From a virus: a stretch of DNA of 31,075 bases. Positions 1,151 through 19,556 of the stretch are shown in pieces (within the stretch, counting starts at the first letter, position 1; the number at the start of each line of letters is the position of its first letter). A program made the translations under genes and the position numbers. The notes below the pieces were generated by a model that saw nothing but the letters and a program-made list of their open reading frames with translations, ran no database searches and had not been told where the DNA came from. The DNA lies in the IMG/VR virus record IMGVR_UViG_3300024236_000016, positions 1 through 31,075 of that record; one strand, given 5' to 3'.

Positions 1151-1228
1151 TTATTTCTTTTCTTTTTTAGTTAAATATATTTGTAACTTAACTATGTTTG
1201 CTTGTTTTGGTTTATACATCGCTTTCAT
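1151..1228 (-). CDS. Micro-ORF, 25 aa basic peptide
   Basis: The ATG at 1228 overlaps the TAA of the adaptor gene as TAATG, and the ORF ends 3 bases before the next start, filling the gap exactly. The product starts MKAMYKPKQANIVKLQ and ends in a Lys-rich tail (KKEKK). I recognise no family. The start/stop overlap on one side and tight spacing on the other argue for a real translated ORF or at least a coupling peptide. Its short length leaves chance possible. Confidence 0.45.
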   Translation of the reverse strand: MKAMYKPKQANIVKLQIYLTKKEKK

Positions 1229-1728: not shown

Positions 1729-1731
1729 ATC

Positions 1732-3989: not shown

Positions 3990-4006
3990 AAATATATTAC
4001 AAAATA
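3990..4006 (-). promoter_or_regulatory. Late promoter-like element A
   Basis: On the minus strand TATTTTGTAATATATTT is followed directly by the ATG at 3989. It matches the TAWWTTGTAATATAWWT element found before three other late genes. It could be a -7 box giving a transcript with almost no leader, since a flavobacterial -7 box normally lies only a few bases before the transcription start. No clear -33 TTG is seen. Confidence 0.45.
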
Positions 4007-4031
4007 AAAGCTAATATTTAATTTAGAATAT

Positions 4032-4063
4032 AAAAAAAAGGGACAACTAATTAAAGCCATCCC
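4032..4063 (-). terminator. Rho-independent terminator after tail tube gene
   Basis: On the minus strand an 8-bp stem (GGGATGGC with GTTGTCCC, including G-T pairs) with an 8-base loop is followed by eight T. It lies between the tail tube gene and the next unit. Confidence 0.7.
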
Positions 4064-4096
4064 CTCTTTTATTAACGAATTAAATTAAAAATAGAA

Positions 4097-4627: not shown

Positions 4628-4648
4628 TTTATTTATTTTTTAGTTATT

Positions 4649-4683
4649 AAAAAAGGGTAAGTAGATAATAAACCTACCTACCC
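4649..4683 (-). terminator. Strong terminator after major capsid gene
   Basis: On the minus strand a 10-bp stem (GGGTAGGTAG with CTACTTACCC, one G-T pair) with a 9-base loop is followed by six T. It is the strongest hairpin in the late region and lies right after the capsid stop codon. Confidence 0.8.
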
Positions 4684-4708
4684 TTATTATGATTATTATT
4701 AATTATTA

Positions 4709-5656
4709 TTAGTTAGATGCGTTAACGATTCCGTATGTCACGATATCTTCTACTACCGCGTACATAACCGATGCTGTATATCTCATAACGAAACGTACAT
4801 TTTTAGAACCATCAATATCAGCCATATCTAAAACTTTCACTTCATTATGGTCTGCTAATAAACCTGTACCAAAGAATAAGTTAGATTTTAAAGTAGCAAT
4901 CATTGTGTTATCAGCTAAACCGTTAGCACATACTACTTTTACTCCGTCAAACCATTGGATATCGATATCTTGGTTATTACCTTGAGCCATATATCCGTTA
5001 GCACCTTCTCCGTTTGCTTGGAAACCACCTAAAGAACGCTTATATGCCCTCCATACATTTTGAGATACATAGATGTATAAATCTTCGTTACCATATAATG
5101 CACTTGGAATAGCATCTACAACTTTTCCTAACTCATCAATTACGTTAGCAGCAGTTACACTTGCTCCTGCAACTTCTTGCGCAGCAGGTAAATCAGCATC
5201 AGTAGCTAATAATGTAGCGAAACCATCAAAAGAACCTGCACCCGCAGAACCACTCCAAATATCTTGTTCAGTCTTTTCTGCTACTTTAGCAGCGATATGA
5301 CCTATAAAATAATCAGAAAAGTTTTTTGGTAAGTTATCGTGAGCAGAATATCCCATAGAAATAGCCTCCCAATCTGATTGGAATGGAGTTTTACATAACT
5401 CTAAATTTACTTGTAATTCTTTAGGCTCTAAAATTTTCTCTGTTAAGTCTAAAGTTGAAGTATCTGCGAAATCACAAGATGCGTTTGCTACGATACCATC
5501 TAATGAAACTCTTTTTAATACCTCTTTGTACTTTACATTTGGTTTTACTTCAATTAAACCATTTGCAATAGTGTTTCCACTTAATAAAGCTGCTGATACA
5601 TATTTACCCGCAAATTCACCTGCATAAGTAGAAGTGATGTTTGTTGTTGTTGCCAT
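4709..5656 (-). CDS. Major capsid protein, HK97 fold
   Basis: The 315-residue protein lies right after the scaffold gene (2-base gap). It has the expected HK97-fold features: an N-terminal extended arm, a P-domain helix with EKTEQDIWSG, the A-domain stretch ALYGNEDLYIYVSQNVWRAY, and a C-terminal VRFVMRYTASVMYAVVEDIVTYGI. This matches the capsid proteins of Bacteroidota siphophages from memory. Base composition is slightly richer in G and C than in the neighbours, as is usual for a highly expressed gene. A strong terminator follows. No separate delta domain is visible, and the scaffold is a separate protein. Confidence 0.85.
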   Translation of the reverse strand: MATTTNITSTYAGEFAGKYVSAALLSGNTIANGLIEVKPNVKYKEVLKRVSLDGIVANASCDFADTSTLDLTEKILEPKELQVNLELCKTPFQSDWEAISMGYSAHDNLPKNFSDYFIGHIAAKVAEKTEQDIWSGSAGAGSFDGFATLLATDADLPAAQEVAGASVTAANVIDELGKVVDAIPSALYGNEDLYIYVSQNVWRAYKRSLGGFQANGEGANGYMAQGNNQDIDIQWFDGVKVVCANGLADNTMIATLKSNLFFGTGLLADHNEVKVLDMADIDGSKNVRFVMRYTASVMYAVVEDIVTYGIVNASN

Positions 5657-5658
5657 AA

Positions 5659-6234
5659 TTATTTATTTAATGTTTTAAAAATATTATTTAATGTATTATT
5701 TTTTCTTTTTTGTGAGTAAAGAAATAACTCTTTCTTTTCTACTGATGCTTCGGGTGTATGTGTAATACCTTCAACCTCATCAGATGCTAATTCTACAGAA
5801 ACTTCCTCAACTTCTTTAACCTCTACTTTAGCAAGTTTTAATTCGTTGATTTCTTTTCTTAATTCTTCAATTGCTGAAAAGAATTGCTCTTCTGTAATAG
5901 ACTTAACTACTTTTTTAGGAGAAGCAACTTCTTCTGACATTTCTTCTTCAACAACCTCTTCAGATACCTCTTCTTCTTTTGGCTCTTCTTCTGTTGATGC
6001 TTCTTTAATGTCTGCAATAACACCTTCTTCTTCGATAACGATTACTTTTCCTTCTGCTTCATATTCTCCAATAGGAACTGCAATTCTTTCTTCGTCTGCA
6101 ATAACAAAGATTTCTGCACCTACCTCAAATGATTCAGCTTCAAAAATAGCACCATTATCCAATTTCATTTGTTCTAACTTTACCTCTATTCCAAGTAAAG
6201 TGCGAACTTTGTTTAATGTTTCTTTTGTGTTCAT
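5659..6234 (-). CDS. Probable capsid scaffold protein
   Basis: The 191-residue protein is very acidic. A small N-terminal beta domain (about 1-80: LGIEVKLEQMKLDNGAIFEAE, GAEIFVIADEERIAVPIGEYE) is followed by a Glu-rich linker (about 80-110) and a predicted coiled coil (about 117-140, EEQFFSAIEELRKEINELK), ending in a basic tail (YSQKRKNNTLNNIFKTLNK). An acidic coiled-coil protein with a basic end directly upstream of the capsid gene is typical of a scaffold, and similar proteins occupy this position in Bacteroidota phages. A late promoter-like element ends at its start codon. The role is inferred from position and composition. Confidence 0.65.
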   Translation of the reverse strand: MNTKETLNKVRTLLGIEVKLEQMKLDNGAIFEAESFEVGAEIFVIADEERIAVPIGEYEAEGKVIVIEEEGVIADIKEASTEEEPKEEEVSEEVVEEEMSEEVASPKKVVKSITEEQFFSAIEELRKEINELKLAKVEVKEVEEVSVELASDEVEGITHTPEASVEKKELFLYSQKRKNNTLNNIFKTLNK

Positions 6235-6251
6235 AATTATATTACAATTTA
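6235..6251 (-). promoter_or_regulatory. Late promoter-like element B
   Basis: On the minus strand TAAATTGTAATATAATT is followed directly by the scaffold ATG. It is identical to element C before the protease gene. It probably drives the scaffold-capsid unit that ends at the terminator at 4649-4683. Confidence 0.5.
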
Positions 6252-6280
6252 GATTAATTATTTTGTATTTTCATAACAAA

Positions 6281-6649
6281 TTAGTCTTTAGGAGGTAAAA
6301 TAAACTCAATTAACTTATCTGTTTGAAATTGTCTTTTAAAATCATCATAGTTTTCATCTTGTATAAAAATTAAAGAATCGTCTATAACTCCACCAACAGG
6401 TACATTCATTGTTGGTACATCTAAAATATATTCTCCAAACATATTTATATCTCCTTTGTTTGTTTGAAAATCAACTGCTAAATCTTGTGCTAAAAAAGTG
6501 ATTGTAACATCAACTATATTTGCACCCTCATCTCTGAATTGTAAAGCAGTGATACCCGTTCTTAATGTTAGTTGTTCGGGAATTGTTATATTAAACGTTC
6601 CCGTTGGAGACTCATTAAATGCTCCGTTTTGTAATGTTATTCTTGCCAT
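6281..6649 (-). CDS. Hypothetical protein between protease and scaffold (122 aa)
   Basis: The function is not recognised. The protein is short and looks beta-rich: an N-terminal ITLQNGAFNESPTG, a middle LTLRTGITALQFRDEGANIVDVTI and a final IEFILPPKD. It sits inside the head module, after the protease and a 43-codon ORF whose stop overlaps its start (TAATG). A capsid-decoration or head-stabilising role is possible from position only. Confidence 0.55.
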   Translation of the reverse strand: MARITLQNGAFNESPTGTFNITIPEQLTLRTGITALQFRDEGANIVDVTITFLAQDLAVDFQTNKGDINMFGEYILDVPTMNVPVGGVIDDSLIFIQDENYDDFKRQFQTDKLIEFILPPKD

Positions 6650-6780
6650 TATTGATTATTATTAGTTTTATTTATATTACCTATTCCTTGTTTCCAATAT
6701 TCGGGTGCTTTACATTTCTTTTTATCACACCCACTTATTGTATATGTATTTTTACATTTGCAATACTTTGCTCTACTCAT
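6649..6780 (-). CDS. Small Cys-rich protein, possible zinc knuckle (43 aa)
   Basis: The ORF starts inside the last codons of the protease gene and its TAA overlaps the next ATG (TAATG), so it fills the gap with coupling on both sides. The product has four Cys as C7-x-C9-x8-C18-x4-C23 within a Lys-rich sequence (CKCKNTYTISGCDKKKCK) and then EYW. This spacing could bind one zinc. I recall short Cys/Lys-rich proteins of this type near head genes in flavobacterial phages, but no function. Confidence 0.6.
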   Translation of the reverse strand: MSRAKYCKCKNTYTISGCDKKKCKAPEYWKQGIGNINKTNNNQ

Positions 6781-7375
6781 TATCTACGCTATTTAAAAAA
6801 TCTATTAATTCTTTTAATATTCTTTCATCATCTGATAACTCTTCTTCTATTTCTTCTTTTGGTCTTTCTAATTTATCCGCAAAGTAACCCTCAATACTAA
6901 ACCCTTTTACTTTACCCGTTTTTACATAGTCATTCCAAATTTCATCGTTATTCACTTTTACACTACCCATCCAAGTTCCAATAGGCACATCTAAACCATA
7001 TAATGCAGTCTTATCTTTATTCTTATCTTCTACTATCCAAGACTCAACTAAAGTTAAACCCTCTAATTGTTTATCGTGTTCTAAAGTAGATTGCGATTGA
7101 TTACCATTCTGTAAATACATTTGAGAGGCTTTTAAGACCGTTTCTTCTGAAAAGAATATATAATATTCATCTTCTCCATTACGTCTGTATATAGGCTTCT
7201 TTGGTATTAATAAAGCACCCATTAACAATCTCTTTTCTTTGTTGATTTCAGCAAGTTTTATTTCTTGGTTATTTAACGCTATAAAGTCAGATTCAATTGC
7301 GGGGTTTTCCACAACAGAAATAGCCTCAACACCTATCGCTTCATCGTCATCTAATATAAGTTCGATTATCTTCAT
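6773..7375 (-). CDS. Prohead serine protease, XkdF-like (Peptidase_S78_2)
   Basis: The 200-residue protein carries the signatures of the XkdF-type prohead protease: LIPKKPIYRRNGEDEYYIFF (about 56-75), STLEHD with His100, GTWMGSVKVNNDEIW and GKVKGFSIEGYF with Ser160. His and Ser are the expected catalytic pair of this herpesvirus-assemblin-like clan. The family cleaves scaffold and capsid N-termini during head maturation. The neighbours agree: scaffold and capsid follow within 1.2 kb. A late promoter-like element identical to the one before the scaffold ends at its start codon. The C-terminus is acidic (EEIEEELSDDE). Confidence 0.88.
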   Translation of the reverse strand: MKIIELILDDDEAIGVEAISVVENPAIESDFIALNNQEIKLAEINKEKRLLMGALLIPKKPIYRRNGEDEYYIFFSEETVLKASQMYLQNGNQSQSTLEHDKQLEGLTLVESWIVEDKNKDKTALYGLDVPIGTWMGSVKVNNDEIWNDYVKTGKVKGFSIEGYFADKLERPKEEIEEELSDDERILKELIDFLNSVDNE

Positions 7376-7392
7376 AATTATATTACAATTTA
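7376..7392 (-). promoter_or_regulatory. Late promoter-like element C
   Basis: On the minus strand TAAATTGTAATATAATT directly precedes the protease ATG. It is identical to element B and is the likely start of the head transcription unit downstream of the tape measure gene. Confidence 0.5.
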
Positions 7393-7411
7393 TTAGTTTT
7401 ATTTTACATTT

Positions 7412-9412
7412 TTATATTGATGCACCTTCAACAATATTCCTTTCCATACTTTGAGCAGAGGTTACATCGTTTGCTACCACGTATGCTTTTATAGGCTCTT
7501 TTTCTTGACCTCCTATTGCTTCAGCTAATTGATTTGTACCACTTGAGCCAACTACGTTAAATGAAGGAACTGCTGATGCTATTGTTGGAGAACTACCTAC
7601 ACCCACACTTGCACCACCACCTCCACTTGGTGTTTTAACAGACGCTATATTTTTAACCGTTGCAAAACCTTGCGATGCTACAATTGCTGTTGTTGCTAAA
7701 CGTTGTACTAAACCTGCACCAACTAAACCACTTTCAGCTTTTTCTGCCCACACATTCGATATACCTTGATATGTGTTTATCAATGCTTGTGCTAATGCAA
7801 ATGCTTTTCCCGCCTTACTATTTTCGCCTAACACTTGACTAATTGCTCCAAACGTACTTGATGCTAAAGCGATTTTTTGTTGTTTTAATTGCTTTTCTCT
7901 ATCAATATCTTTTTTAGAATTATCGTCTTTTAATTTATTTATAGCATTTTCTTTTGCTCTTTCTAAACCTTCTGTTGCTAAACCTTTTGCCTTTGCAAGT
8001 TCTATTAACTTATCATAATGTAAAGCAGTATTTTCTAATTCTAATATTCTACGTTCTTCTTCAGTAACTGCTTCTGCATCTCTTATCTGACTTTTTAAAT
8101 CATTTAATTCTTGAATCTTTGCTTTTTCTTTTTCTTTATCAGCTAAATCAAATTCTGCTTGTTGGTTATCAATTGCAGTCTTTTGTGCTTTACGTAATTC
8201 TAAAACCTTTTCAGATTCTTTACCGTAATATTCTTCAGCAAGTTTTATTTGCTCATCATAATCGGTTTTAATTAATCTTAACTTTTCTTTTCTTTCTTCT
8301 TCCTCTGTATCAATTAAACCTTTTCTTATACGTTCTAAATCACTTGCTTTTTTATCTTCTATTGCTTTTATTTGTGCAGCTTCTTCTCTTTTAGCACCTA
8401 CAATTTGACTTGTAACCTCTTTTTGTTTTGTTAACCTTTGAGTTTCTAACTCTATTACTCTTGCTTTTAATCTTGCCTCTTCATCTAAATCTTCTTTTTT
8501 TGAACGTGCTAATGAGTTTTCAGCTTGTTTTGCTTGTAAACGTAATTTAGCGGCTGCTATTTCTTTGTTAGTTATCTCTTCATCTATCTTACCTGCTTCT
8601 TTTAAAAACTCAATACGTTCTTTTGCAGTAAACTTTTCCCTATTCGCTGCTTTCTCTAATAAGTCTGCTCTATCTCTATTTGCTTTTGCTCTTTGTACAA
8701 GTAAATTTCTTTCAGCTTTATCTGCATTTGCTCGTTGGTCTGCTATTTGAGCAGCTATCTTTGCTTCTTCTTTTAATTCTTTTACAAAGTCTTTTGTTTT
8801 CTTTGTTACTTTATCTAATGTATTTTCAACACCTGTTAAACTATCAATAAGTGAATTACTTGACTTCTTTGCATCTTCTAAAGCACCTTTAAAATCACCA
8901 CTAAATACTTTCTTCATAGCACTACCAAGAAAACCAATAGTATTCATAAGAGCCTTAAACCTATTTGTTATATTCTCTTGAATTAAGTTTTTAAAGTCTA
9001 TTATTGCTTTTTTAGGATTCTCAAATACAGATATTATTGCTTCTCCTAAATCAGCCAATAAGTCAACTAAATTTCCAACTACACTACCAATTACTCCAAG
9101 TATTTTAGCAAACTTATTTTGCCCCTCTTCTGAACTTTTAAAAGCAGCCATTAAAGAAGTAACTGCAATTAACAATGCACCAATACCCGTTCCAATAATA
9201 GCAACCCTTAAACTCTTAAAGCCCGTTGTTAGTCCTTTAATAGATTGTCCAAAGTTCTTAACCTTTGTTACTGCACCACCCGTTAAACCGTCTAAAGTTT
9301 TAGTTGCTTCACCCGTTACTTTATTGGTTTCTTTTATTTCGTTGTTTAATTTCTGAACTTCTTTTACGCCTTTATCAGACTTTACTTCAATGTCAACTAC
9401 TATTTTTTCCAT
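7412..9412 (-). CDS. Tail tape measure protein
   Basis: The 666-residue protein has the layout of a tape measure. The N-terminal basic/helical region (DGLTGGAVTKVKNFGQSIKG) is followed by hydrophobic segments (about 70-95 and 105-130, e.g. AIIGTGIGALLIAVTSLMAAF). A long charged coiled coil (about 210-510) comes next, and the C-terminus (LAQALINTYQGISNVWAEKA, then LATTAIVASQGFATVKNI and a Gly/Ser linker) is the usual end of Bacteroidota tape measures. Its length sets tail length, about 100 nm at the common rule of 0.15 nm per residue. Unusually it lies downstream of the tail-tip genes and directly upstream of the prohead protease. Confidence 0.88.
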   Translation of the reverse strand: MEKIVVDIEVKSDKGVKEVQKLNNEIKETNKVTGEATKTLDGLTGGAVTKVKNFGQSIKGLTTGFKSLRVAIIGTGIGALLIAVTSLMAAFKSSEEGQNKFAKILGVIGSVVGNLVDLLADLGEAIISVFENPKKAIIDFKNLIQENITNRFKALMNTIGFLGSAMKKVFSGDFKGALEDAKKSSNSLIDSLTGVENTLDKVTKKTKDFVKELKEEAKIAAQIADQRANADKAERNLLVQRAKANRDRADLLEKAANREKFTAKERIEFLKEAGKIDEEITNKEIAAAKLRLQAKQAENSLARSKKEDLDEEARLKARVIELETQRLTKQKEVTSQIVGAKREEAAQIKAIEDKKASDLERIRKGLIDTEEEERKEKLRLIKTDYDEQIKLAEEYYGKESEKVLELRKAQKTAIDNQQAEFDLADKEKEKAKIQELNDLKSQIRDAEAVTEEERRILELENTALHYDKLIELAKAKGLATEGLERAKENAINKLKDDNSKKDIDREKQLKQQKIALASSTFGAISQVLGENSKAGKAFALAQALINTYQGISNVWAEKAESGLVGAGLVQRLATTAIVASQGFATVKNIASVKTPSGGGGASVGVGSSPTIASAVPSFNVVGSSGTNQLAEAIGGQEKEPIKAYVVANDVTSAQSMERNIVEGASI

Positions 9413-9543
9413 TCTATTTGTTGTTTAGTTCTTACAAATACCTCTTTAAAAGTATCGGGAAATTTATTTTTACCACTCGCTAATTGTACTATTTCTTCTT
9501 TACAATCAGTTTCTTTTAACAATTCTAATATTATTTTTATCAT
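9400..9543 (-). CDS. Small hypothetical protein before tape measure (47 aa)
   Basis: The ATG is one base after the stop of the tail-tip gene, and the ORF overlaps the tape measure start by 13 bases, so it is tightly embedded. The product is charged and helical (MIKIILELLKETDCKEEIVQ, ending EVFVRTKQQIEWKK). The slot before the tape measure usually holds tail assembly chaperones, but in this genome the recognisable chaperone lies elsewhere (15023-14290). No function is assigned. Confidence 0.6.
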   Translation of the reverse strand: MIKIILELLKETDCKEEIVQLASGKNKFPDTFKEVFVRTKQQIEWKK

Positions 9544-9544
9544 T

Positions 9545-12157
9545 TTAAAGTGTTGTACTTACTATTAAATTACTACTTAACGCACTTGCATTACCTGAAG
9601 TATCAACTGCATCTACATTTATCGTATATTGAGTTCCCGCTTGTAAACCAAATATAGTGTATGTTGTTCCTATTTCTGTTGGTAATTGAATTACACCATC
9701 TAAATAAATTCTATAATAATTAACCGCAACATTATCAGTTGATGCAGTCCAACTTATAGTAACTTGTGTTCTACCTACTAAATCAGCACTTAAATTAGTT
9801 GGTGTTGTAGGAGGTGTTGTATCTTGGAAACCTGTTTGAGCAGTTACCTCTGTTGCACTTGCAAAACTACTTTCATTACCATTTGCATCAAAAGCAGTAA
9901 CTCTTATTAAATAAGTTGTGTTTTCTAATAAACCTAATATTGTATAATTAGTTTGTACACCTAAAGTATCTTCTAACACACCATCAACATAAACTTTATA
10001 ACCCGCTAAATTTGTTTCTGTATTACTATTCCAAGAAATTGAAACTGCATTATTTGTTTCACTATCAATCGTTAAACCTTGAACATCACTTGGAGGTGTT
10101 GTATTTGATACCTCTTCTAAAATTATTATGTCATTTAATAACTCTAATTCAGATTTACCACTTTGTAAATTAGTTGTGATTGAATTGATTTTATAACTAT
10201 GTCCGTTAACTATAAATCTATCTGCCAATGTATATTTCAATAATATTCTTAAAGGTAAATAAGCAGTTAGTTTTGTTAATCTGTTCTTTTTATTAAATAC
10301 ACTTTTAATATAATTCTTGTAATACTTCTTAAATAAAGTATCTTCAAAATCAGATGTATTAGTATATTCGTTTACCTCTTCATCAAAATGTATGTTTTCT
10401 TTGCTTATGTTTGAATCTATTGAACGACTATTTGAAGGTATATTATAAGCTACCAATTGTAAGTTTGTATTTAAACTATCTACAAATGAAATTGAAGTAC
10501 CACCTGTTTGGTATATTGGATAAAACAATAAAGGTTTGCCAATGTAACTTTCTTCGTTATCATCTACAAATCTACCATATTGTATTGTGGTTGAACTATC
10601 ATCGTTTATATCTTTTAACCTTTCGAACATCATATGAGAAAATGATGGAGTAACTTTATATATACCACCATCAATATCTCTTTCATCTCCATTATAATAA
10701 TTAGTACCCCATTGAGCAGCTTCTTTTTGTTCATAAGTAGCGGCTAATAAAGTATCTGTATCTTCATAACCAAAATCTATTTCTCTATAAGGTAAAGCTA
10801 CATTAACACTACTCTTTCTTGTATCTACATATTTAGTAATATCATAACTAACACCACTTGCATAAAAGCTATCTAATGTTTTTACAATTATCTTATTTGT
10901 ATCTCTATCAATGTAAGCAGTTAAATTAAACATTTTAAATAATGAAGTTAAGAAATCAATAACTTTCATTTCGGGTATTTGTTGAGTAATTACAAAATCA
11001 AAATTACTAAAGAATATAAATTGATTTGTTGAGTACCTTACCGTTGAACTACCACTACCAAAAGGTGTGTAATCTATACTGTAATAAATATCTGTAAATG
11101 TAATATCGTTCTTTGCTTCAATGTACAACTCATATTTAGAGCCACTAACAATTAAGTTCTCTAAACTAACTACCTTATTACCAACAATACCATTTTCTAA
11201 AGGTATTCTTAAACCGTCTCTATATATAAATAAATTATAAGGCTCTTGACTTGTAGTCTCTAAATTAATAGAGAATATATCGTAAAACTCAACATCACCA
11301 TTTATAATTAAAGTTGTTGAGTCTATTGTTTGTGTTTCTGTACCTACATCAGTTTTAACCTCAAACGTATTTACAAAACCACCATTTGCTTCACCCGTAT
11401 TTTCAACCTTACCTTTCTTTCTATGCATCCACATAAACAAATCATAATATGCTTTATTTGAACTATTGAAGAAATCTTCACTAAAAGTTAAATTATATTC
11501 GTACTCAATTGCTTCTATAATCTTACTTATTCTAATTGCATACTTTAATTCATCATATCTAACTCCGTGAACTTGCCCTTGATGTTGTCCACTATCATAA
11601 AATAAATTACCGTCATTTTCATTACCTCCAAAATGTCCACTTGCACTATTGTAATATAATTGTTGTGTATGTGTTATTAATGGTATTATAATGTCATTTG
11701 AACTTGGACTTAAAGCTAAATAATTTGATATAACATTTGGCTCATATTTCTTACTTAATAAGTTTAGTTTGTTTAATACATTTAACTTATCGTCTCCTAA
11801 TATCTCTTTTAAGGCAATTGTACTGCCAAAGAATGTTACTTTATAGCTATGTGCTTTATTGTCTCTTAAATCAACTCCTTCTAACTTTATTTTGCCATTT
11901 CTAAATGGACTATTGTTTAACTCTATTCTTGCATCTACTTTTATTCTTGCATCAAAAGTATTATCAATGTCAAAGTTATAATAGTGTTTAAATATTCTGT
12001 TATTCTTTTTTGTAGCGGGTATGCTAAACGTTTTTGAAAAGTCTGTAAATACCTTTGCAATATCCCTTACATTTTGAATTGATTGTGTTATAGAAACACT
12101 TTCGTCTTTGAATAGTTCAACCCTATGACCTTGTATGTACAATTGTAGTTCTTGCAT
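9545..12157 (-). CDS. Tail-tip/baseplate hub protein with two C-terminal FN3 domains
   Basis: The 870-residue protein begins MQELQLYIQGHRVELFKDES, with KVFTDFSKTFSIPATKKN shortly after. This N-terminus recurs, from memory, in tail-tip proteins of flavobacterial phages. The middle contains a region (about 390-430) ending in VIDFLTSLFKMFNLTAYID that resembles tail hub/Tal-type proteins. The C-terminus holds two fibronectin type III domains, about 685-778 and 779-870, each starting after a TTPP linker and containing ISWN/ISWT and TYLIRVTA/QYTINVDA strands. FN3 domains on tail tips are thought to bind cell-surface glycans. It lies between the other tail-tip gene and the tape measure. Confidence 0.7.
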   Translation of the reverse strand: MQELQLYIQGHRVELFKDESVSITQSIQNVRDIAKVFTDFSKTFSIPATKKNNRIFKHYYNFDIDNTFDARIKVDARIELNNSPFRNGKIKLEGVDLRDNKAHSYKVTFFGSTIALKEILGDDKLNVLNKLNLLSKKYEPNVISNYLALSPSSNDIIIPLITHTQQLYYNSASGHFGGNENDGNLFYDSGQHQGQVHGVRYDELKYAIRISKIIEAIEYEYNLTFSEDFFNSSNKAYYDLFMWMHRKKGKVENTGEANGGFVNTFEVKTDVGTETQTIDSTTLIINGDVEFYDIFSINLETTSQEPYNLFIYRDGLRIPLENGIVGNKVVSLENLIVSGSKYELYIEAKNDITFTDIYYSIDYTPFGSGSSTVRYSTNQFIFFSNFDFVITQQIPEMKVIDFLTSLFKMFNLTAYIDRDTNKIIVKTLDSFYASGVSYDITKYVDTRKSSVNVALPYREIDFGYEDTDTLLAATYEQKEAAQWGTNYYNGDERDIDGGIYKVTPSFSHMMFERLKDINDDSSTTIQYGRFVDDNEESYIGKPLLFYPIYQTGGTSISFVDSLNTNLQLVAYNIPSNSRSIDSNISKENIHFDEEVNEYTNTSDFEDTLFKKYYKNYIKSVFNKKNRLTKLTAYLPLRILLKYTLADRFIVNGHSYKINSITTNLQSGKSELELLNDIIILEEVSNTTPPSDVQGLTIDSETNNAVSISWNSNTETNLAGYKVYVDGVLEDTLGVQTNYTILGLLENTTYLIRVTAFDANGNESSFASATEVTAQTGFQDTTPPTTPTNLSADLVGRTQVTISWTASTDNVAVNYYRIYLDGVIQLPTEIGTTYTIFGLQAGTQYTINVDAVDTSGNASALSSNLIVSTTL

Positions 12158-13267
12158 TTATCTTACACTATTTATCATATCAAAAGCATAATCTAAATCT
12201 AATGAGTAATCTACTAAATTATCGTTTGCTCTTGTCTTAAATGTTAAACTATTTGTTTTTACGTTCATTGGTGTTATCTTACCATCCATTTCCATCCATA
12301 CCTTTTCAGATAACAAGATTTCTTTCATAGGCTCGTTATAATCTTCACTTACATAACCTGTATTTAATGTAATGCTTTTGTTACCAACTACATTGAATTG
12401 CTGATACTGATGTTGATTACTATACCCAAAATTACTATAAATGTTTGATTTGTATTTCTCTTTACTTACATTCATTTTCTCAATAGACTTCTTAAAAAAC
12501 CAAATGTCTTGTACTGCACCAAACCTATTTACAAAACTTAATTTAGCAGGAGTATATCTACATTCGTCTATTGTTACAACATCTATTACCTCAACTATCT
12601 TATTACCTAAAACAGGCTCCCCACTAATAATAATTTTATCAACTGCGTTTAAATCTACTTCGCCTAATATAGCGTCGATACATACGTTATCTTCATAAGT
12701 ACCATTCTCTGATAATACTCTTTCTTTAAAAGAATCTATATCTGTACCTATTACTTGAAATATACTTGTAGTTGATGAGGTTATTGCTTGTGTTCTTACA
12801 ATCTTTCCTTTATATAAATAAGTTATCTCTTCTGCTCGGTTTCTGTTAATTGGTATCTTTACATCTGCATCATTTAATCTATAAATAACTTTGTTTGTAA
12901 TAGCCCTTAATGTTTGTATTTCTCCATCTTCACTATCAAAATAATTATAACCATCAGTACCTATTATATCAAAATAACTACTATAAACAACACCCGCATT
13001 ATTGTTTTCTAAAAAGTCATCGTAAACAGTGAAAGTTATATTTACTGCTTGTGACCAACTATCAACATTATCTTTATCTACTTCTATAAAGTCTCTTATT
13101 AATTCTGCAAACTCAAATAGAACACTACCATCTTTCTCAAAGTTTTTCGCTAATACATATTCAGCCACACCATTTATAGTTAATGTTACTTTTATAGAAT
13201 GCCCATATACATCTACTAATCTAAAATGAAAAGGTGACCTCGTTGGAGTAAAAACAGATACTGCCAT
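12158..13267 (-). CDS. Probable distal tail/tail-tip protein (369 aa)
   Basis: The N-terminal half is a beta-rich domain starting FTPTRSPFHFRLVDVYGHSI. The second half holds CRYTPAKLSFVNRFGAVQDI followed by WFFKKSIEKMNVSKEKYKS and KSITLNTGYVSEDYNEPMKE. From memory, the NRFGAVQDIWFFKK pattern marks a conserved flavobacterial phage tail protein located next to the FN3-containing hub. A Dit-like or tail-tip structural role is inferred from position and fold impression only. Its start overlaps the stop of the gp10-like gene (13267). Confidence 0.55.
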   Translation of the reverse strand: MAVSVFTPTRSPFHFRLVDVYGHSIKVTLTINGVAEYVLAKNFEKDGSVLFEFAELIRDFIEVDKDNVDSWSQAVNITFTVYDDFLENNNAGVVYSSYFDIIGTDGYNYFDSEDGEIQTLRAITNKVIYRLNDADVKIPINRNRAEEITYLYKGKIVRTQAITSSTTSIFQVIGTDIDSFKERVLSENGTYEDNVCIDAILGEVDLNAVDKIIISGEPVLGNKIVEVIDVVTIDECRYTPAKLSFVNRFGAVQDIWFFKKSIEKMNVSKEKYKSNIYSNFGYSNQHQYQQFNVVGNKSITLNTGYVSEDYNEPMKEILLSEKVWMEMDGKITPMNVKTNSLTFKTRANDNLVDYSLDLDYAFDMINSVR

Positions 13268-13839
13268 TATTTTCTTGCTTTATTATTTATACTATTTTTC
13301 ATTAACTGCTCAACATCTAACTTATATGCTTCAATTAAATCTTTATCTATGTTCTTAAACGCTTTCTCAAAAGGTTTTGTAAAAAATAAACTTGGTCTTA
13401 TACCTCTGTTGTAAATATTACCCGCAATTATATGTGCTATGGTATTGTAATTACCTTTCTTAAATCTACCTTTACTATCTCTTAACCTTATGTTCTTTTT
13501 CTTTGCCCACTTCTCTAAACTTTGTACAAACTCTTTATACCTACCAACTTTGCCACTTCCAAATCTATATGGACTATTTGGTGCTTGTTGTCCTCTTATC
13601 TTTGCGTTTGGAGATACTTTACTTGGGTCTTTACCTCTAACACCTTTATCTTGAAATATACCATAGTCCTCCATTAAGAAACTTAACTCAAAACTATTCT
13701 TACTTTGCTTTACATTGTATCGTAAACTATTGTATAAATCTCCCGAAGAACGTTTCTTATCTCTTGTTAAATTTGCCTTTGATTGTGTTACCACATACTT
13801 TGCAAATCTATTTAATTCTTCTTGTACGTTTTTTAACAT
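13267..13839 (-). CDS. HK97 gp10-like neck/tail completion protein
   Basis: The 190-residue basic protein has the family pattern: an N-terminal helix, then SSGDLYNSLRYNVKQ, a central YGIFQDKGVRGKDPS (the gp10 family typically has an xYxxxVEFGT-like motif here), and a C-terminal FFTKPFEKAFKNID. HK97 gp10-type proteins join or finish the tail at the neck. The ORF overlaps the end of the upstream tail-terminator-like gene by 7 bases. The region around 100-135 is very basic (KKKNIRLRDSKGRFKK). Confidence 0.72.
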   Translation of the reverse strand: MLKNVQEELNRFAKYVVTQSKANLTRDKKRSSGDLYNSLRYNVKQSKNSFELSFLMEDYGIFQDKGVRGKDPSKVSPNAKIRGQQAPNSPYRFGSGKVGRYKEFVQSLEKWAKKKNIRLRDSKGRFKKGNYNTIAHIIAGNIYNRGIRPSLFFTKPFEKAFKNIDKDLIEAYKLDVEQLMKNSINNKARK

Positions 13840-14288
13840 ATTGACATATCATTTGGCACTATTACATCAACAGTTAAAACCCAACCTGCTAACTCATCTT
13901 CAAACCTATCATAAAAAGGCTCAAATACAGGCGGACTATCTACTTGATATAAATCTAAATGTAAACTACCTCCTCTTAATATTTGCACTAATCTATTTAA
14001 AACTGCTAATTGTGTGTTTAATATATCTTGCTCGTTTGTATTACCTACAAATACATCAACTACTTCTTCTTTAGAAACATCAACAATATCCATCGCAAAA
14101 ATAGATAAACTAAAACGTAATACACTATCTTCATTCGTTGCATTATTTACTATTAAGTGTGATAAAGGAAACATTGTCTGCTTTGCTAATGCTATTCTTG
14201 AAATATCTCCCGTAGTAACAGTATTAACATTTACATCTGATAACAATGTATCTTTAATCTTTTGAGTTAAGTTATAATATCCTTGCAT
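13833..14288 (-). CDS. Probable tail terminator/neck protein (151 aa)
   Basis: The 151-residue protein lies between the tail assembly chaperone and the gp10-like gene. It starts MQGYYNLTQKIKDTLLSDVN and has FPLSHLIVNNA, then a beta-rich end with GWVLTVDVIVPNDMSIC. This layout (helix, alternating beta strands, C-terminal strand used for ring formation) is typical of gpU/gp17-like tail terminators, and similar proteins lie beside gp10-like genes in Bacteroidota phages. The assignment is inferred from position and sequence impression. Confidence 0.55.
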   Translation of the reverse strand: MQGYYNLTQKIKDTLLSDVNVNTVTTGDISRIALAKQTMFPLSHLIVNNATNEDSVLRFSLSIFAMDIVDVSKEEVVDVFVGNTNEQDILNTQLAVLNRLVQILRGGSLHLDLYQVDSPPVFEPFYDRFEDELAGWVLTVDVIVPNDMSIC

Positions 14289-14289
14289 T

Positions 14290-15023
14290 TTAAAATTTAC
14301 TTTTTATTCTTTTTGCTTCCAACTCTGATTTCTCTTTTTCAAAAGATAACATCGTTAAACATTGATGTACATTTAATTTAGTGATATCTTCAAATCTTGT
14401 AATATCTCCGTTAGCGAGTCCATAAATTGATTGATACCAACCCCATTTTGCTGCAAAGTTTGATTCACTTGAATAATCTCCTCCTCCGTTCCCGCTGAAT
14501 AATGTATCATATGTTTCGATAAGGTTATCCCTAAATTGTACAAAAAAAAAATTGAACCAATAACTGCACTCAATGGCATATCCTTCATTACTTCGGGTGT
14601 TAATGCAGTGTAATCAACTATACTATATTTTTCTAATTTAGAAATCTTTATTGGTCTATATAATACATTCATTGCAATGTGCATATTTTCCCAAGCTGCT
14701 AAATTGTTATCTAAATCAATATACTCGCCTAAACTCATTTCATTTAAATCGGGTATAAAGCCATAGTCTACTCCATTCATTGTAAACTTTGTTACGTGAT
14801 TTGGTTTAGTATTTAAAACCTTATCTAACATTGTAAGTACTTTGTTTACACTACCCATCTTTAATTTATAACTATCAGATAAAGGTACTCCACAAAATAT
14901 TTCAATCATTTTAGCATCTAAAAAACTACCACTTGGATTATTCTCTGCTATTCTTAAATACTTTTGGTACTGCCCTAAAGTTATTTCATCTAAACTACTT
15001 GGTACGTTGAGTTCTAATTTCAT
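14290..15023 (-). CDS. Tail assembly chaperone, -1 frameshift product (gpGT-like, 244 aa)
   Basis: A -1 shift at the ten-T run (14542-14551) enters an open frame of 83 codons that extends 82 bases past the 0-frame stop and ends at 14290, 1 base before the next ATG. This frame encodes NFAAKWGWYQSIYGLANGDI, then TRFEDITKLNVHQCLTML and FEKEKSELEAKRIKS. From memory these are the conserved C-terminal (T) domain features of Bacteroidota tail assembly chaperones. The shift gives 244 residues against 216. The arrangement follows the lambda G/GT principle, where a small share of ribosomes makes the long form. The exact slip codon is inferred; the two overlapping open frames are seen directly. Confidence 0.78.
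14373..15023 (-). CDS. Tail assembly chaperone, 0-frame product (gpG-like, 216 aa)
   Basis: The start is the ATG at 15023 (MKLELNVPSSLDEITLGQYQ), directly after late element D; a longer reading from a TTG at 15071 would overlap the upstream ORF and is not favoured. The N-terminal region has the LGQYQKYLRIAENN and AKMIEIFCGVPL patterns seen in tail assembly chaperones of Bacteroidota phages. The frame runs through a ten-T run at codons 158-161 and continues 55 residues to a TAA. It is the non-shifted product that would bind the tape measure during tail assembly. The last part shares its DNA with the -1 frame extension. Confidence 0.75.
   Translation of the reverse strand: MKLELNVPSSLDEITLGQYQKYLRIAENNPSGSFLDAKMIEIFCGVPLSDSYKLKMGSVNKVLTMLDKVLNTKPNHVTKFTMNGVDYGFIPDLNEMSLGEYIDLDNNLAAWENMHIAMNVLYRPIKISKLEKYSIVDYTALTPEVMKDMPLSAVIGSIFFLYNLGITLSKHMIHYSAGTEEEIIQVNQTLQQNGVGINQFMDSLTEILQDLKISLN
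14542..14551 (-). other. Slippery run for programmed -1 frameshift
   Basis: On the minus strand the 0-frame codons ATT TTT TTT TTG form ten T in a row, allowing a classic X-XXY-YYZ slip at T-TTT-TTT or T-TTT-TTG. It lies where the 0 frame and the conserved -1 frame meet. RNA polymerase slippage on the same run could have a similar effect. Confidence 0.75.
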
Positions 15024-15040
15024 ATTTATATTACAAATTA
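15024..15040 (-). promoter_or_regulatory. Late promoter-like element D
   Basis: On the minus strand TAATTTGTAATATAAAT directly precedes the chaperone ATG at 15023. It matches elements A-C. It would start the tail transcription unit. Confidence 0.5.
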
Positions 15041-15043
15041 TCT

Positions 15044-15196
15044 TTAATGTTTTATGAAAAAACCAATACAATTTTCATAAGCCTTCGTCAATAACAAATA
15101 TTGTTGAGGTGTTTTAGGTTTAGCAATTCTTACTTGCTTATTTTTCCTGTGATGAATATAACACTCAATCACCGCTATCATTTCTTCGTTTGCCAT
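15044..15196 (-). CDS. Small hypothetical protein after terL (50 aa)
   Basis: The ATG overlaps the terL TAA as TAATG. The product, starting MANEEMIAVIECYIHHRKNK and containing TPQQYLLLTKAYENC, is helical and basic. I recall similar short proteins next to terL in flavobacterial phages, without function. The coupling and the regular codon use support a real gene. Confidence 0.65.
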   Translation of the reverse strand: MANEEMIAVIECYIHHRKNKQVRIAKPKTPQQYLLLTKAYENCIGFFIKH

Positions 15197-16413
15197 TACC
15201 TTATACTATAATTACCCTTGTTTGGGTTATCTAAATTGTAAATAACGTTGTATCTAATACCATCAATTGCGTGATTAAAATCATCTACATATAACTTACT
15301 ACCTTTATCTAAATACACATAGTTATTTAATTCCTTTGCTATGTTCGTACTGTTTGGCTCAACTACTATTTCAAAGTCTTGCATCGTTGTTATACCACTT
15401 TCAATAGTTCCTTTCTTTACTGCTTTCATATTAACACCTTTATATTTTAAATCAGATATTAATCTTGGTTCTGCACTATCTGCAACTATTAATTTCTTAC
15501 CAACTCTACTTAATATTATTTGTGCTAATTCTGTTGTACCTAAACCATTTCTATACAAATGTTCTTTAACGTATATTTTTCTTTTTGCTTTATCAATAGC
15601 AACTTCTGTTAATGTATCGGGGTCTATACTAAAACCAAAGTCCATTCCACAACTTGTTTGTAAACCATCGGGATTGAACTCCCCAAAACTCCAATTCGTA
15701 AATACAACACCTTCTGCTTTATCTAACCAACCACCAAGTATTTTATGTTTGTACTTATTAGGGTTTGTTAAACGTATGTTCTCAATGTTCTTTAAGAATG
15801 ATTCGGGTAAGTTTAAGCGATTATCTAAATACGTTGTATGTATGTAGCAAGTATCTCCTACTTGTCCGTTAAAACCTTCCTTAACACCTTTAGCTTCAAA
15901 GAAACGTTTATATATCCAATGTTCTTTTGTTGTAGGGTTTAATATAAGTATAATTCTATTCTGTTGTACATTACTTCTTACAGATAAATCAATAGTATCA
16001 AATTCATTCTCATCAACCATTTCTTCCGCTTCATCTAACACCCAAGTTGATATACCTTGTAATGATTTTAGATTAGCCGTTTGATTTCCTGCGCTTGTCT
16101 TAATACCTCTAAAGATAATCTTACTATCGGTAATCGTATTCGTTATCTCTTTTCTATTTACATCAAAATGGTCCGATAAGTTAAGTAGTTCTATTTTCTC
16201 CTTAAATTCGGGTATGATTGATAACTCTGCAGAAGTCATTGTATAACGAGTGTACAAACAGTTATAACCTACATCTAAAGTATTTGTAGCTTCTATAAGT
16301 GTTGTACTAAAACTCTTGCTACTTCCTCGTTATCGACCTCCCGTAACGATGTAGTAACGTGCGTCACTTTCTCGTAGTGGGAGGAATTTTTCATTTATTG
16401 TTATTTGTTCCAT
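15196..16413 (-). CDS. terL: Terminase large subunit, reading frame interrupted by an in-frame TAA in Walker A
   Basis: Read from the ATG at 16413 (MEQITINEKFLPLRESDARY), the frame gives YIVTGGR, then TAA at codon 28, then RGSSKSFSTTLIEA and the rest of a TerL. Without the six bases TAACGA the P-loop would be a perfect GGRGSSKS. Downstream are Walker B (STWVLDEAEEM), the motif LILNPTTKEHWIY, and nuclease features CGMDFGFSIDP, IVADSAEPRLI and FNHAIDGIRY. TerL is the ATPase motor and nuclease that packages DNA through the portal. The total of about 403 codons is normal. The frame after the stop has no plausible start upstream of the P-loop, so a functional enzyme needs recoding, unless the stop is a mutation or sequence error. 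The start overlaps the HNH stop (TAATG). Confidence 0.85.
16327..16335 (-). other. CGA-TAA-CGA: stop codon between identical codons, candidate translational bypass site
   Basis: On the minus strand the terL codons read GGA GGT CGA TAA CGA GGA AGT. A peptidyl-tRNA hop from the first CGA to the second would skip TAA and yield GGR-GSSKS. GGGAGGT lies just before the take-off codon. This resembles the matched take-off and landing codons of phage T4 gene 60. A six-base insertion mutation is the plain alternative. Confidence 0.4.
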
Positions 16414-16988
16414 TATAATAATTTACCTATTTTCTTTAATCTATAAGAACTTATACCCGTTTCTTTTTCGGCTTGATTTAAAGAATCATATCTAACTCCA
16501 TTATATTCTATTGCCGTTCCTTGTAGTTTTCTTGTTCGGTCTAAAAACTCTTTTGTGTGCTTCTTTCCAAAAAATGGATTTAACTTGCCTTTTCTACCAT
16601 ACATTCCATTCTTTGCACCACTAACTTTTTCACTTATCTTTTTTCTAACTTCAATTCTTTTAGATGGATTGTTATCTCCCATCATTTTTTTAGATTGAAA
16701 TTCTCTTACCTCCGCATACTTCTTACTATCTCTATAATTCATATTGCAAGATGTATTCATTATCATAAAAGCAGCAGATGAAGACCTATCTCTATAATGT
16801 AAAAATAATAAATAGTGTGCTAAATAATGCTCTCTTGCAGTTAGTAATACAAGATTATTTTCATCATCAGAACCACCTAACCACCTTGGTTTTATATGGT
16901 GTGATTCATAATAACAGTCATCTTTTTTACTTCTCCCCATACCTTTCCTTGAAACGCATAAAGAATCATATATTTTTAAATAATTCAA
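16413..16988 (-). CDS. HNH homing endonuclease with NUMOD-type DNA-binding repeats
   Basis: The 191-residue protein starts at a TTG (MNYLKIYDSL), just after the terS stop, and ends overlapping the terL start. The N-terminal HNH nuclease domain shows YESHHIKPRWLGGSDDENNL and LTAREHYLAHYLL, the usual phage HNH pattern. The middle holds NUMOD3-like repeats (SGAKNGMYGRKG, LNPFFGKKHTKE), and the end has a NUMOD1-like module (YNGVRYDSLNQAEKETGIS). Such free-standing homing enzymes cut cognate genes lacking the insertion and spread by repair. Its place between terS and terL, 77 bases from an interruption in the terL P-loop, suggests that terL is its target. Confidence 0.88.
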   Translation of the reverse strand: MNYLKIYDSLCVSRKGMGRSKKDDCYYESHHIKPRWLGGSDDENNLVLLTAREHYLAHYLLFLHYRDRSSSAAFMIMNTSCNMNYRDSKKYAEVREFQSKKMMGDNNPSKRIEVRKKISEKVSGAKNGMYGRKGKLNPFFGKKHTKEFLDRTRKLQGTAIEYNGVRYDSLNQAEKETGISSYRLKKIGKLL

Positions 16989-16990
16989 AT

Positions 16991-17275
16991 CTATTCAGAC
17001 TTTTTAAAATGTATAATAGGTATATTTAATACCTCTCCATTTGTTGTGATATCAACCTCATCTTTTGGTTTACCTATGTAATACTCTAAAAACAATTTAC
17101 CTGCTTGGACATCTTTGTCCTTTATAGCTTTTGTCTTTATCATATTAATTACATCTATAACGTCTTGCTTTGTTGCAGCTTCTTTTAAGGCACTTCTATA
17201 TTCGTTCCTACGTTTATCTATCTTGCCTTCTTTTGCTTTAGTAGAATGCCCTCCATTTTCTTTTCTCTTGTCCAT
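16991..17275 (-). CDS. terS: Terminase small subunit (94 aa)
   Basis: The short basic protein begins MDKRKENGGHSTKAKEGKID and has a helical middle (VIDVINMIKTKAIKDKDVQA, GKLFLEYYIGKPKDEVDI). The EYYIGKPKDEVDITTNGE end is typical of small terminase proteins in Bacteroidota phages, which bind the packaging site and deliver DNA to TerL. It is the first gene after two tandem terminators and a promoter-like site, so it opens the late region. Only the homing HNH gene separates it from terL. Confidence 0.72.
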   Translation of the reverse strand: MDKRKENGGHSTKAKEGKIDKRRNEYRSALKEAATKQDVIDVINMIKTKAIKDKDVQAGKLFLEYYIGKPKDEVDITTNGEVLNIPIIHFKKSE

Positions 17276-17282
17276 ATTAATA

Positions 17283-17309
17283 CAAATTAACTATTAATTT
17301 ATATAACAA
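17283..17309 (-). promoter_or_regulatory. Putative late promoter before terS
   Basis: On the minus strand TTG, 17 bases, then TAATTTG, followed by TATTAAT and the terS ATG. It resembles the four late elements but with a shorter tail, and is the only one with a TTG at -33-like spacing. It overlaps the T-tract end of the terminator, so it restarts transcription right after the block. Confidence 0.5.
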
Positions 17310-17335
17310 AAAAAAGCACCTAATTTAATAGATGC
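17308..17335 (-). terminator. Terminator 2 upstream of late region
   Basis: On the minus strand a 7-bp stem (GCATCTA with TAGGTGC, one T-G pair, 6-base loop) is followed by eight T. Confidence 0.7.
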
Positions 17336-17348
17336 CTTTTTCAAATTT

Positions 17349-17379
17349 AAAAAATAAAAACAGAACGTCCTAATTCTGT
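17349..17379 (-). terminator. Terminator 1 upstream of late region
   Basis: On the minus strand a 6-bp perfect stem (ACAGAA with TTCTGT, 8-base loop) is followed by TTTTTATTTTTT. It stands only 13 bases before terminator 2, and the two insulate the late region from upstream transcription. Confidence 0.6.
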
Positions 17380-17406
17380 ATATTTTAAAGAATTATAGTA
17401 TGTTTA

Positions 17407-17595
17407 TTAAAATAACACTTCATCTAAATCTCTTATCCATTTTCTTATATTACTTTTATTACAAGTACAAGGTTCGTGGTATTTATGATTGAAGTATTTA
17501 GAATGTAGTTTACACATTATCTTATAATCTTCGTTAGCCATTCTTGATGTTGTTCTTTGCTTAACACCTGCCCATATAACTTTATCTTCTACCAT
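17407..17595 (-). CDS. Small hypothetical protein with His/Cys cluster (62 aa)
   Basis: The product contains MCKLHSKYFNHKYHEPCTCN, a dense set of Cys and His that may bind zinc, and a C-terminal IRKWIRDLDEVLF. I recall similar short proteins upstream of terminase genes in flavobacterial phages, without known role. It starts just 1 base beyond the stop of the 43-residue ORF and is the last gene before the tandem terminators. Confidence 0.6.
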   Translation of the reverse strand: MVEDKVIWAGVKQRTTSRMANEDYKIMCKLHSKYFNHKYHEPCTCNKSNIRKWIRDLDEVLF

Positions 17596-17596
17596 A

Positions 17597-17728
17597 TTAA
17601 AAAAGTTCTATTTCGTTGAGTTCTTCTTGTCTTTTATTACATCCACAATCTTCTCCCCATATCTTTTTAACCAACCACTTTATACCTGTGTAGTAAGTAA
17701 TGCGTTCTATTAAATCACCAAGTTTCAT
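17597..17728 (-). CDS. Small hypothetical phage protein (43 aa)
   Basis: The ATG overlaps the upstream TGA (ATGA). The product begins MKLGDLIERITYYTGIKWLV and ends with EDCGCNKRQEELNEIELF. Short proteins with this LGDLIExITxxTGIK start and DCGCxxRQExLN end are, from memory, widespread in phages of marine and aquatic bacteria, but their function is unknown. Confidence 0.7.
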   Translation of the reverse strand: MKLGDLIERITYYTGIKWLVKKIWGEDCGCNKRQEELNEIELF

Positions 17729-18231
17729 ATTAAATCTTTTATATTGTTTAACAATCTATTTTCTATTTCATAAGTATCTGCCCTCATTTTAAAAGATGTT
17801 CCATTGTCTCTATTCCTTACATCACCTTTTTTATAAAAAAGAGATTTATCCAATAACTCTTCTTTAGTAACCCAACCACACAATTCTAACTTATTTGTCC
17901 TTTTGTTTAAACTATTGAATATGTAAATATCACAATCAAACTCTTTTTGAAAACCAATAAAGTTATGTACAAAATAAGGTTTCATATCAACCGTTCTACC
18001 CATTGTTTTGACATCAATTCTTTTCCCTTTGTATTCAAAATCAAAACCTCCATCAAAACCCTTTGTGAATTTATGTTCTATATTAAATGCATTTTTAGTT
18101 AATACTTCTCCAATCAAACCTACAAGCTGCTGCTCTTTATTTCCATTTGCAGAATGTCTATTACCCATATTGTTTTTAGATAAAAAATCCCAACACTTTA
18201 ATTTTAGGGTATGTGGTACATTTAACCTCAT
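17725..18231 (-). CDS. Nuclease-like protein, PD-(D/E)XK type (168 aa)
   Basis: The N-terminal half reads QQLVGLIGEVLTKNAFN then GFDGGFDFEYKGKRIDVKTM. A conserved Glu in an early helix, then D-x-x-(F/Y)-x-x-x-G-K-x-x-DVK, is the usual arrangement of PD-(D/E)XK nuclease cores (restriction-like or resolvase-like). The C-terminal half (GWVTKEELLDKSLFYKKGD) resembles the same group of uncharacterised phage proteins. Its start overlaps the stop of the sigma-like gene (ATGA), so the two are co-expressed. Whether it processes phage DNA or degrades host DNA is not known. Confidence 0.6.
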   Translation of the reverse strand: MRLNVPHTLKLKCWDFLSKNNMGNRHSANGNKEQQLVGLIGEVLTKNAFNIEHKFTKGFDGGFDFEYKGKRIDVKTMGRTVDMKPYFVHNFIGFQKEFDCDIYIFNSLNKRTNKLELCGWVTKEELLDKSLFYKKGDVRNRDNGTSFKMRADTYEIENRLLNNIKDLI

Positions 18232-18698
18232 ATTATTTTGTCTATTAATTGTCCCTTAACTTTACGATAAGTATTATACAAACTATGATATGTTATTTTA
18301 GTCTTATCACTTAATTCTCTTATCGAGTATTCATTTTGTATCAATTCAAATACTTGCCTATCGTACCAATTTAAGTTCTTTAATTCTTCATCAACTATCT
18401 TTTGTGCTTCATCAAAATCTATTTGTTCTGCATCAGATAACTCATAAGTAAACTCTAAACCAACTTTAGCTTCCTTTTGTTGTTTCTTCTTAAAGTTTAT
18501 AAATGCGTTTCTTAATGCTCTGTATATGTAAAAGTAGTTTACCTCATCTCCATAAGATATATCTAAACCTCTTTTTAGCATTAAACCTATATTGATGTAC
18601 ATATCTCCAACAATATCTTCTGCCTCTTGTTGAGTGCAGCCCATTTTTTTAGTTGTGTTTAACCATTTCTTATGGTCTTTGTAAATAGTTTCTAACAT
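18228..18698 (-). CDS. Sigma-70-like transcription factor (phage late regulator candidate)
   Basis: I prefer the ATG at 18698 (MLETIYKDHKKWLNTTKKMG) over an upstream one at 18734, because the conserved part begins there; this gives 156 residues. About residues 15-75 look like sigma region 2 (CTQQEAEDIVGDMYIN, then YIYRALRNAFINFKKK). The C-terminal part (NLNWYDRQVFELIQNEYSIR, then ELSDKTKITYHSLYNTYRKV) is a sigma region 4 type helix-turn-helix. It should recruit host RNA polymerase to special promoters. It sits just before the late region, whose genes share a conserved promoter-like element, so it is the natural candidate for their activator. A 336-base AT-rich gap precedes it. Confidence 0.72.
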   Translation of the reverse strand: MLETIYKDHKKWLNTTKKMGCTQQEAEDIVGDMYINIGLMLKRGLDISYGDEVNYFYIYRALRNAFINFKKKQQKEAKVGLEFTYELSDAEQIDFDEAQKIVDEELKNLNWYDRQVFELIQNEYSIRELSDKTKITYHSLYNTYRKVKGQLIDKII

Positions 18699-19034: not shown

Positions 19035-19556
19035 TTATAATCTAAATTTAACTTGTTGTCCATTAATATTATCTTTCTTTCTTAAATTATCTTCTGCCCA
19101 CAAAGGTTGTAAGTTACTATAATGGCATAGTTTTATCATTTCTTCTTTAGTGTTAGCAGATGATAATGGTATAATATGGTCTATATGCCATTCTCCTTGA
19201 TTATCCCAATTCATACCTTTTGTAAACTGCCTTTCAATATGTGCTTTAGCAACTTCCCAATCTACACCTAACATTTCTTGAGTTTTAGATGTTTTAGAAT
19301 AGCTTTTGTTTTTAAAAGCCATAGATGTTCTTGTTCTTAAATTATCTTTTAATTTATGTAAAGGGTCTGTTTTTCTTTTTTGTCTTCGATATTCTTTATA
19401 ATATTCTTTATAACGTTCTGCATTGTCTTTTTGATATTGCTTTTTATATTCCTTATTACAAGATTTACAAAACGGTTGATAACCATCTTTCTTTTTCTTA
19501 TGCTTACTAAATTCACTATAAGGCTTTTCTATTTTACATTTACTACACTTCTTCAT
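19035..19556 (-). CDS. HNH endonuclease with N-terminal zinc finger (paralogue 1)
   Basis: The 173-residue protein has an N-terminal Cys4 finger (C4, C7, C30, C33: KKCSKCKIE ... FCKSC), a basic linker, and a C-terminal HNH nuclease core with EWHIDHIIPLSSANT and CHYSNLQPLWAEDN. It is clearly paralogous to the protein at 24678-25256: both share LGVDWEVAKAHIE/LGVDWEICKAHIE and the HIDH core. Free-standing HNH genes of this type are mobile. It follows the DnaA-like gene by 2 bases and lies before the AT-rich gap. A homing role rather than packaging is inferred. Confidence 0.85.
   Translation of the reverse strand: MKKCSKCKIEKPYSEFSKHKKKKDGYQPFCKSCNKEYKKQYQKDNAERYKEYYKEYRRQKRKTDPLHKLKDNLRTRTSMAFKNKSYSKTSKTQEMLGVDWEVAKAHIERQFTKGMNWDNQGEWHIDHIIPLSSANTKEEMIKLCHYSNLQPLWAEDNLRKKDNINGQQVKFRL

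Follow-up and report, generated by a model that had tools for sequence, protein, structure and literature searches.

A conserved T run probably joins two reading frames of a chaperone-like gene in Bacteroidota phages

Ten consecutive T residues lie inside a gene of a Bacteroidota phage, and behind them a second reading frame stays open up to the next gene. The locus raises the question of whether this gene gives rise to two products of different length and, if so, which machine slips at the run and what the protein is. The window, that is, the whole stretch of DNA analyzed here, is a virus record of 31,075 bases. A preliminary description of it had reported ten T inside a gene and a −1 frame that stays open for 83 codons past the slip and ends 1 base before the next gene. 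Our coordinates agree with both statements (Table 1). The run was located on the minus strand and appears as A10 when positions 14551-14542 are viewed on the plus strand. The −1 frame reads FFF-VQFRDNLIETYDTLF...KWGWYQSIYGLANGDITRFE...KSKF; it extends for 83 codons beyond the three F, and its stop codon (14292-14290) is one base ahead of the ATG of the next gene at 14288. The third frame closes immediately. The predicted product pair consists of a 216-aa protein (0 frame) and a 244-aa fusion (by a −1 shift).

Table 1. Features of the recoded locus and its module in the window
Feature	Position	Strand	Remarks
0-frame ORF, main product (chaperone-like)	14373..15023	-	ATG at 15023, stop at 14375-14373, 216 aa; kept in all relatives
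T10 slip run	14542..14551	-	0-frame context ATT TTT TTT TTG; T8-T12 in 348/348 distinct relatives
−1 frame segment	14290..14550	-	FFF included, 86 codons and a stop; C-terminal portion of the predicted fusion (244 aa)
Conserved C-terminal domain, −1 frame (KWGWYQSIYGLANGDITRFE...)	14302..14448	-	in frame within the single ORF of L321
Dual-coded overlap, ~55 codons	14376..14541	-	constraint on both frames
Next gene of the module (phrog_30964, unknown function)	13833..14288	-	starts one base past the −1 frame stop
Four genes between recoded gene and tape measure	13833-14288, 13267-13839, 12158-13267, 9545-12157	-	ORF positions
Tape-measure protein gene	7412..9412	-	downstream; tape-measure PHROGs, E down to 3e-11
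terL (large terminase)	15196..16257	-	upstream, same direction; fixes the gene order

In the first searches, performed by tblastn with both frames, an identical −1 relation was found in 159 of 159 sequences (the window and its relatives). Later alignment-based searches added contigs from Winogradskyella, Flagellimonas, Galbibacter, and Dysgonomonas, those of Dysgonomonas being prophages. The set of relatives also includes Nonlabens phage P12024S and a Bacteroidota genome in which the locus has 57% GC. Removal of duplicates left 348 distinct sites from virus contigs, P12024S, and Bacteroidota genomes. One candidate, L323, was dropped as a chance match. The run is T9 at 232 sites, T10 at 105, T12 at seven, and T8 at four, and nowhere is it shorter than T8. 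An absolute rule of at least T9 had to be rejected in view of the four T8 sites. The sites of L465 and L475 had seemed shorter but carry T9. Alignment of the −1 frame with homologues had been named beforehand as a check, and in this alignment both the register and the frame are kept in the 348 relatives.

Long homopolymers are prone to sequencing errors, and the second frame could be the result of such an error, of phase variation, or of gene decay. However, the −1 register is identical in hundreds of independent assemblies, and among the 348 sites, with run lengths of 8, 9, 10, and 12, the two frames are never fused into one. In addition, selection acts on both frames (see below). The fixed register and the two-frame selection rule out sequencing error, phase variation, and a dead or chance open frame, to which we attach hardly any probability.

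For the analysis of selection, 101 independent close pairs were used, with no sequence in more than one pair. Changes affecting the −1 frame but silent in the 0 frame had a rate of 40-64 per 1000 on the upstream side of the run, compared with 5-18 on the downstream side. This drop falls exactly at the run, showing that purifying selection on the −1 frame starts there. Changes affecting the 0 frame alone increased from 3-9 upstream to 9-27 downstream. Since the downstream values stay below the ~57 of free change, there is weak constraint on the tail of the 0 frame, in agreement with an earlier count on pairs matched for length. The structural model of the 0-frame tail has low confidence, and the tail is mostly missing in L055 and short in P12024S; it is therefore probably not an essential domain. 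L055 (1609-1640) represents a natural loss of the tail: its −1 frame is intact, but its 0 frame stops nine codons past the run.

The deposited records of the Nonlabens phages P12024S and P12024L annotate the −1 frame as a separate small gene with its own internal start. If this were correct, selection on the frame would not be expected to begin at the run, and the invariant residues of the −1 frame would not be expected to sit directly past it, as they do. Between the run and KWGW, the −1 frame has no conserved start codon: of 345 sites, just 12 carry ATG and 48 any of the common start codons. An internal start also leaves the conserved T run unexplained, and we consider it very improbable. 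The proposal that the −1 frame is under selection thus held up in 348 relatives: purifying selection sets in at the run, and the frame lacks a conserved start codon.

Based on this conservation, and with the in-frame copy of the C-terminal domain in L321 (see below) as further support, we conclude that the gene is very probably recoded at the T10 run into a fusion by a real programmed frameshift; this degree of confidence refers to the recoding and excludes the choice of machine. A minority of expression events would enter the −1 frame at T10 and yield the 244-aa fusion, in addition to the main product of 216 aa. The two proteins are probably tail-assembly factors acting like lambda gpG and gpGT. 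The product ratio, the chaperone role, and the level at which the slip occurs are the parts of this explanation that we infer.

The preliminary description had proposed a programmed −1 frameshift of the G/GT type. That the −1 frame is used has strong support. Slippage by the ribosome is not supported to the same degree: RNA-polymerase slippage, too, has such T runs as a classic motif, and the conserved length of this run slightly favors the polymerase. To our knowledge, all known tail-chaperone shifts are ribosomal. Ribosomal programmed −1 frameshifting requires an in-register heptamer of the form X_XXY_YYZ; in the style of lambda G/GT it would take place on T_TTT_TTT (or T_TTT_TTG), and codon choice and dual coding would bring in the additional T residues as a by-product. 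For tail chaperones, ribosomal shifting is well established (PMC5009743). All sites have T_TTT_TTT in register, and the T8 sites (4/4) sit in registers that retain this heptamer. However, any T9 run contains T_TTT_TTT automatically, whatever its register, and heteropolymeric heptamers never occur at the site. In E. coli, U_UUU_UUU is a weak ribosomal site (PMC5009743). Stimulatory RNA structures usually, although not universally, accompany ribosomal slip sites. A downstream RNA structure was also not found: stimulatory structures were enriched on neither side of the run, with downstream mean z values of −0.15 and −0.16 at 98 diverse sites being no better than those of control stretches, and a search for Rfam elements within 13500-18500 detected none. 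The length of the run is a further argument against ribosomal slippage. On the coding strand of these loci, 434 background runs reach at least seven T, but only 47 of them reach nine (in 1.72 Mb outside the site), compared with 344 of the 348 runs at the site. Taken together, we give ribosomal frameshifting somewhat less than an even chance.

Slippage of RNA polymerase on the T run would produce a fraction of mRNA with one extra U or two fewer, and normal translation of this mRNA would lead to the fusion. Such slippage calls for a homopolymer of about 8-9 or more A or T. Runs of Tn with n > 8 are listed as a slippage motif (PMC3711429), and the RNA-DNA hybrid inside the polymerase comprises 9-10 bp (PMC5009743). 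For this mechanism speaks that the sites with T9 or longer use all three codon registers, that T10 or longer is found at 112 of 348 sites but only once in the 1.72-Mb background, and that T9 is maintained at the locus with 57% GC. Moreover, a short 5′ extension of the run pairs with a longer 3′ extension (Fisher p 1e-5 to 3e-4, for clusters that share relatedness and are not fully independent). Judged from these distributions, run length looks to be selected beyond seven T. The absence of detected stimulators fits polymerase slippage as well. On the other hand, the amino-acid needs of the two frames could hold the flanking T in place under dual coding. The T8 runs, which fall in two lineages, are both in registers keeping T_TTT_TTT, and the presence of this heptamer in register at every site also weakens the case for the polymerase, as does the lack of a precedent in a tail chaperone in the literature searched. 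Because the run looks to be selected for more than a heptamer, occurs in three codon registers, and has no stimulatory RNA structure that we could find, we lean narrowly toward RNA-polymerase slippage, to which we assign an even chance. Low prfB frameshifting in Flavobacterium johnsoniae (PMC12421855) is circumstantial for the slip mechanism.

A second coding-strand T9 was noticed at 30865-30873, near the start of a minus-strand gene (30888-30442) for a small lipoprotein-like protein (MKKVLFFFTIGF...). Long T runs are thus not wholly avoided in this genome.

Among cultured phages, a true homologue directly after terL is present in Nonlabens phages P12024S/P12024L (genes 38/39 and 40/41). The P12024S sequence contains T9 and the −1 frame domain (FSLKWSWYHTF). 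It differs from the gene in the window by its ~29% identity and its short 0-frame tail, and in both phage records the two frames are split into unrelated hypothetical proteins. In L321, a second Galbibacter pacificus prophage, a 187-aa ORF directly after terL carries the C-terminal domain in frame (hhalign E 2.7e-7). In contrast to the gene in the window, this ORF is a single frame that needs no slip, and its N-terminal part is not alignable. In Cellulophaga phage phi46:1, the equivalent position is taken by gp16, which is encoded in one ORF, and a comparable series of genes leads from there to the tape-measure gene. For gp16 there is no virion MS/MS note, whereas the portal, other structural, and tape-measure proteins have one. 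Its match to the −1 domain profile is weak, and the comparison with gp16 rests on position and MS/MS annotation.

Is the recoded protein a tail assembly chaperone? Two-product frameshifted genes of tail modules are typically chaperones. The genes of G/GT chaperones are located between the major tail protein and tape-measure genes, adjoining the latter, and the chaperones bind tape-measure and tail-tube proteins and are absent from the virion. Neither part of the recoded protein matched an entry of Pfam or NCBIfam or a named PHROG. No match was found in the PDB, and a fold search with the 0-frame model gave nothing useful. The model showed similarity to many phage proteins without a name and a weak one to a protein that is called tail assembly chaperone (predicted-structure match, E 7.7e-3). 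When folded alone without an alignment, the −1 domain was helical with low confidence (pLDDT 60), and this model was not used. The gene sits after terL and ~5 kb before the tape-measure gene. A lambda-type placement beside the tape-measure gene was not found; four genes intervene, and the order is the same in L165.

These data leave room for the reading that the protein is another morphogenesis factor of the terL-to-tape-measure module and not a tail assembly chaperone. The missing matches in family libraries and the position after terL instead of directly before the tape-measure gene argue for it. However, the tape-measure gene belongs to the same module, the phi46:1 protein at this position differs in its MS/MS annotation from the portal and tape-measure proteins, and the one weak fold match is to a protein named tail assembly chaperone. 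We therefore consider a non-chaperone factor unlikely, and tail assembly chaperone is the name that we infer for the product. Since there is no library match and the gene is not adjacent to the tape-measure gene, we describe it as chaperone-like, probably working like a G/GT member, and did not file it in the G/GT family. The earlier view that the −1 frame encodes the C-terminal domain of Bacteroidota chaperones stood in part: the domain is real and occurs in frame in the Galbibacter prophage after terL, while the chaperone identity found no support in Pfam, named PHROGs, NCBIfam, or the PDB.

The structural genes of the window (1228-16257, minus strand) are arranged in an unusual order: terL, the recoded gene, connector-like genes, tape measure, head protease, capsid candidate, and portal last. 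At the start of terL (~16190-16410, minus strand), an in-frame TAA is located within Walker A (GGT CGA TAA CGA GGA, corresponding to GGR*RGSSKS), and this TAA is flanked on both sides by the codon CGA. A homing endonuclease ORF (16413-16988, phrog_655) lies directly upstream of terL. The sibling L004 (98% identical) lacks both the endonuclease and six extra terL bases, and L003 (= L488 contig) has both. A ribosome that hopped over the terL stop between the two CGA codons would produce GGRGSSKS; the plain alternative is a dead terL. The bypass in T4 gene 60 adjoins mobE and offers a parallel to the terL stop next to an endonuclease. Two further ORFs resemble HNH endonucleases (19035-19556 and 24678-25256, minus strand). 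Both start with MKKC(S/T)KCKIEK... and finish with ...GEWHIDH(I/V)IPL...NLQPLWAEDN, and they are apparently paralogous mobile genes.

Tail-module genes that give two products by frameshifting are well known (PMC5009743, PMC10885494). The locus shares with lambda G/GT (PMC5009743) a slip site in the tail module, a conserved C-terminal extension in the −1 frame, a stop next to the following gene, and two predicted length forms. As expected for a G/GT-type gene, overlapping frames are joined by a conserved slip site, and the −1 extension is under selection. It differs from lambda G/GT in that the recoded gene follows terL, four genes away from the tape measure, and in that every slip site is a long T run, with an overlap of ~55 codons in which both frames are constrained; we could show neither a sequence nor a fold link to lambda G/GT and its relatives in long-tailed phages. 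Shigella mxiE slippage (PMC3711429, PMC5009743) is similar in its T run of ~9, in a product extended in another frame, and in needing no structure. Different are that mxiE is not a tail gene and that slippage in our case is a prediction from DNA. The A9-A10 run of dnaX (Thermus thermophilus, Chlorobi; PMC3711429) is likewise a conserved long homopolymer giving two products, with polymerase or ribosome slipping depending on the group. In contrast to our locus, dnaX is a housekeeping gene of the host with a run of A, and the shift yields the shorter of its two products.

In the literature searched, in which few subscription journals were covered, we found no description of the recoded family or of polymerase slippage in a tail chaperone. 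Tentatively, and with a little less than even confidence, we propose that the tail chaperones of Bacteroidota phages include a large undescribed family in which polymerase slippage on a selected T9-T12 run generates the two length forms, instead of the lambda-type ribosomal frameshift. The family is named in no library and ranges from marine Flavobacteriia phages and Dysgonomonas prophages to the Bacteroidota genome with the 57% GC locus. Annotation of the fusion would correct many records, including those of the isolates P12024S and P12024L. Shine-Dalgarno signals are rarely used by Flavobacterium johnsoniae, a member of the same phylum (PMC12421855). The cultured phage P12024S makes the question of the slipping machine directly testable. 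If it is the polymerase that slips, the need of tail assembly for two products would be met at a different level.
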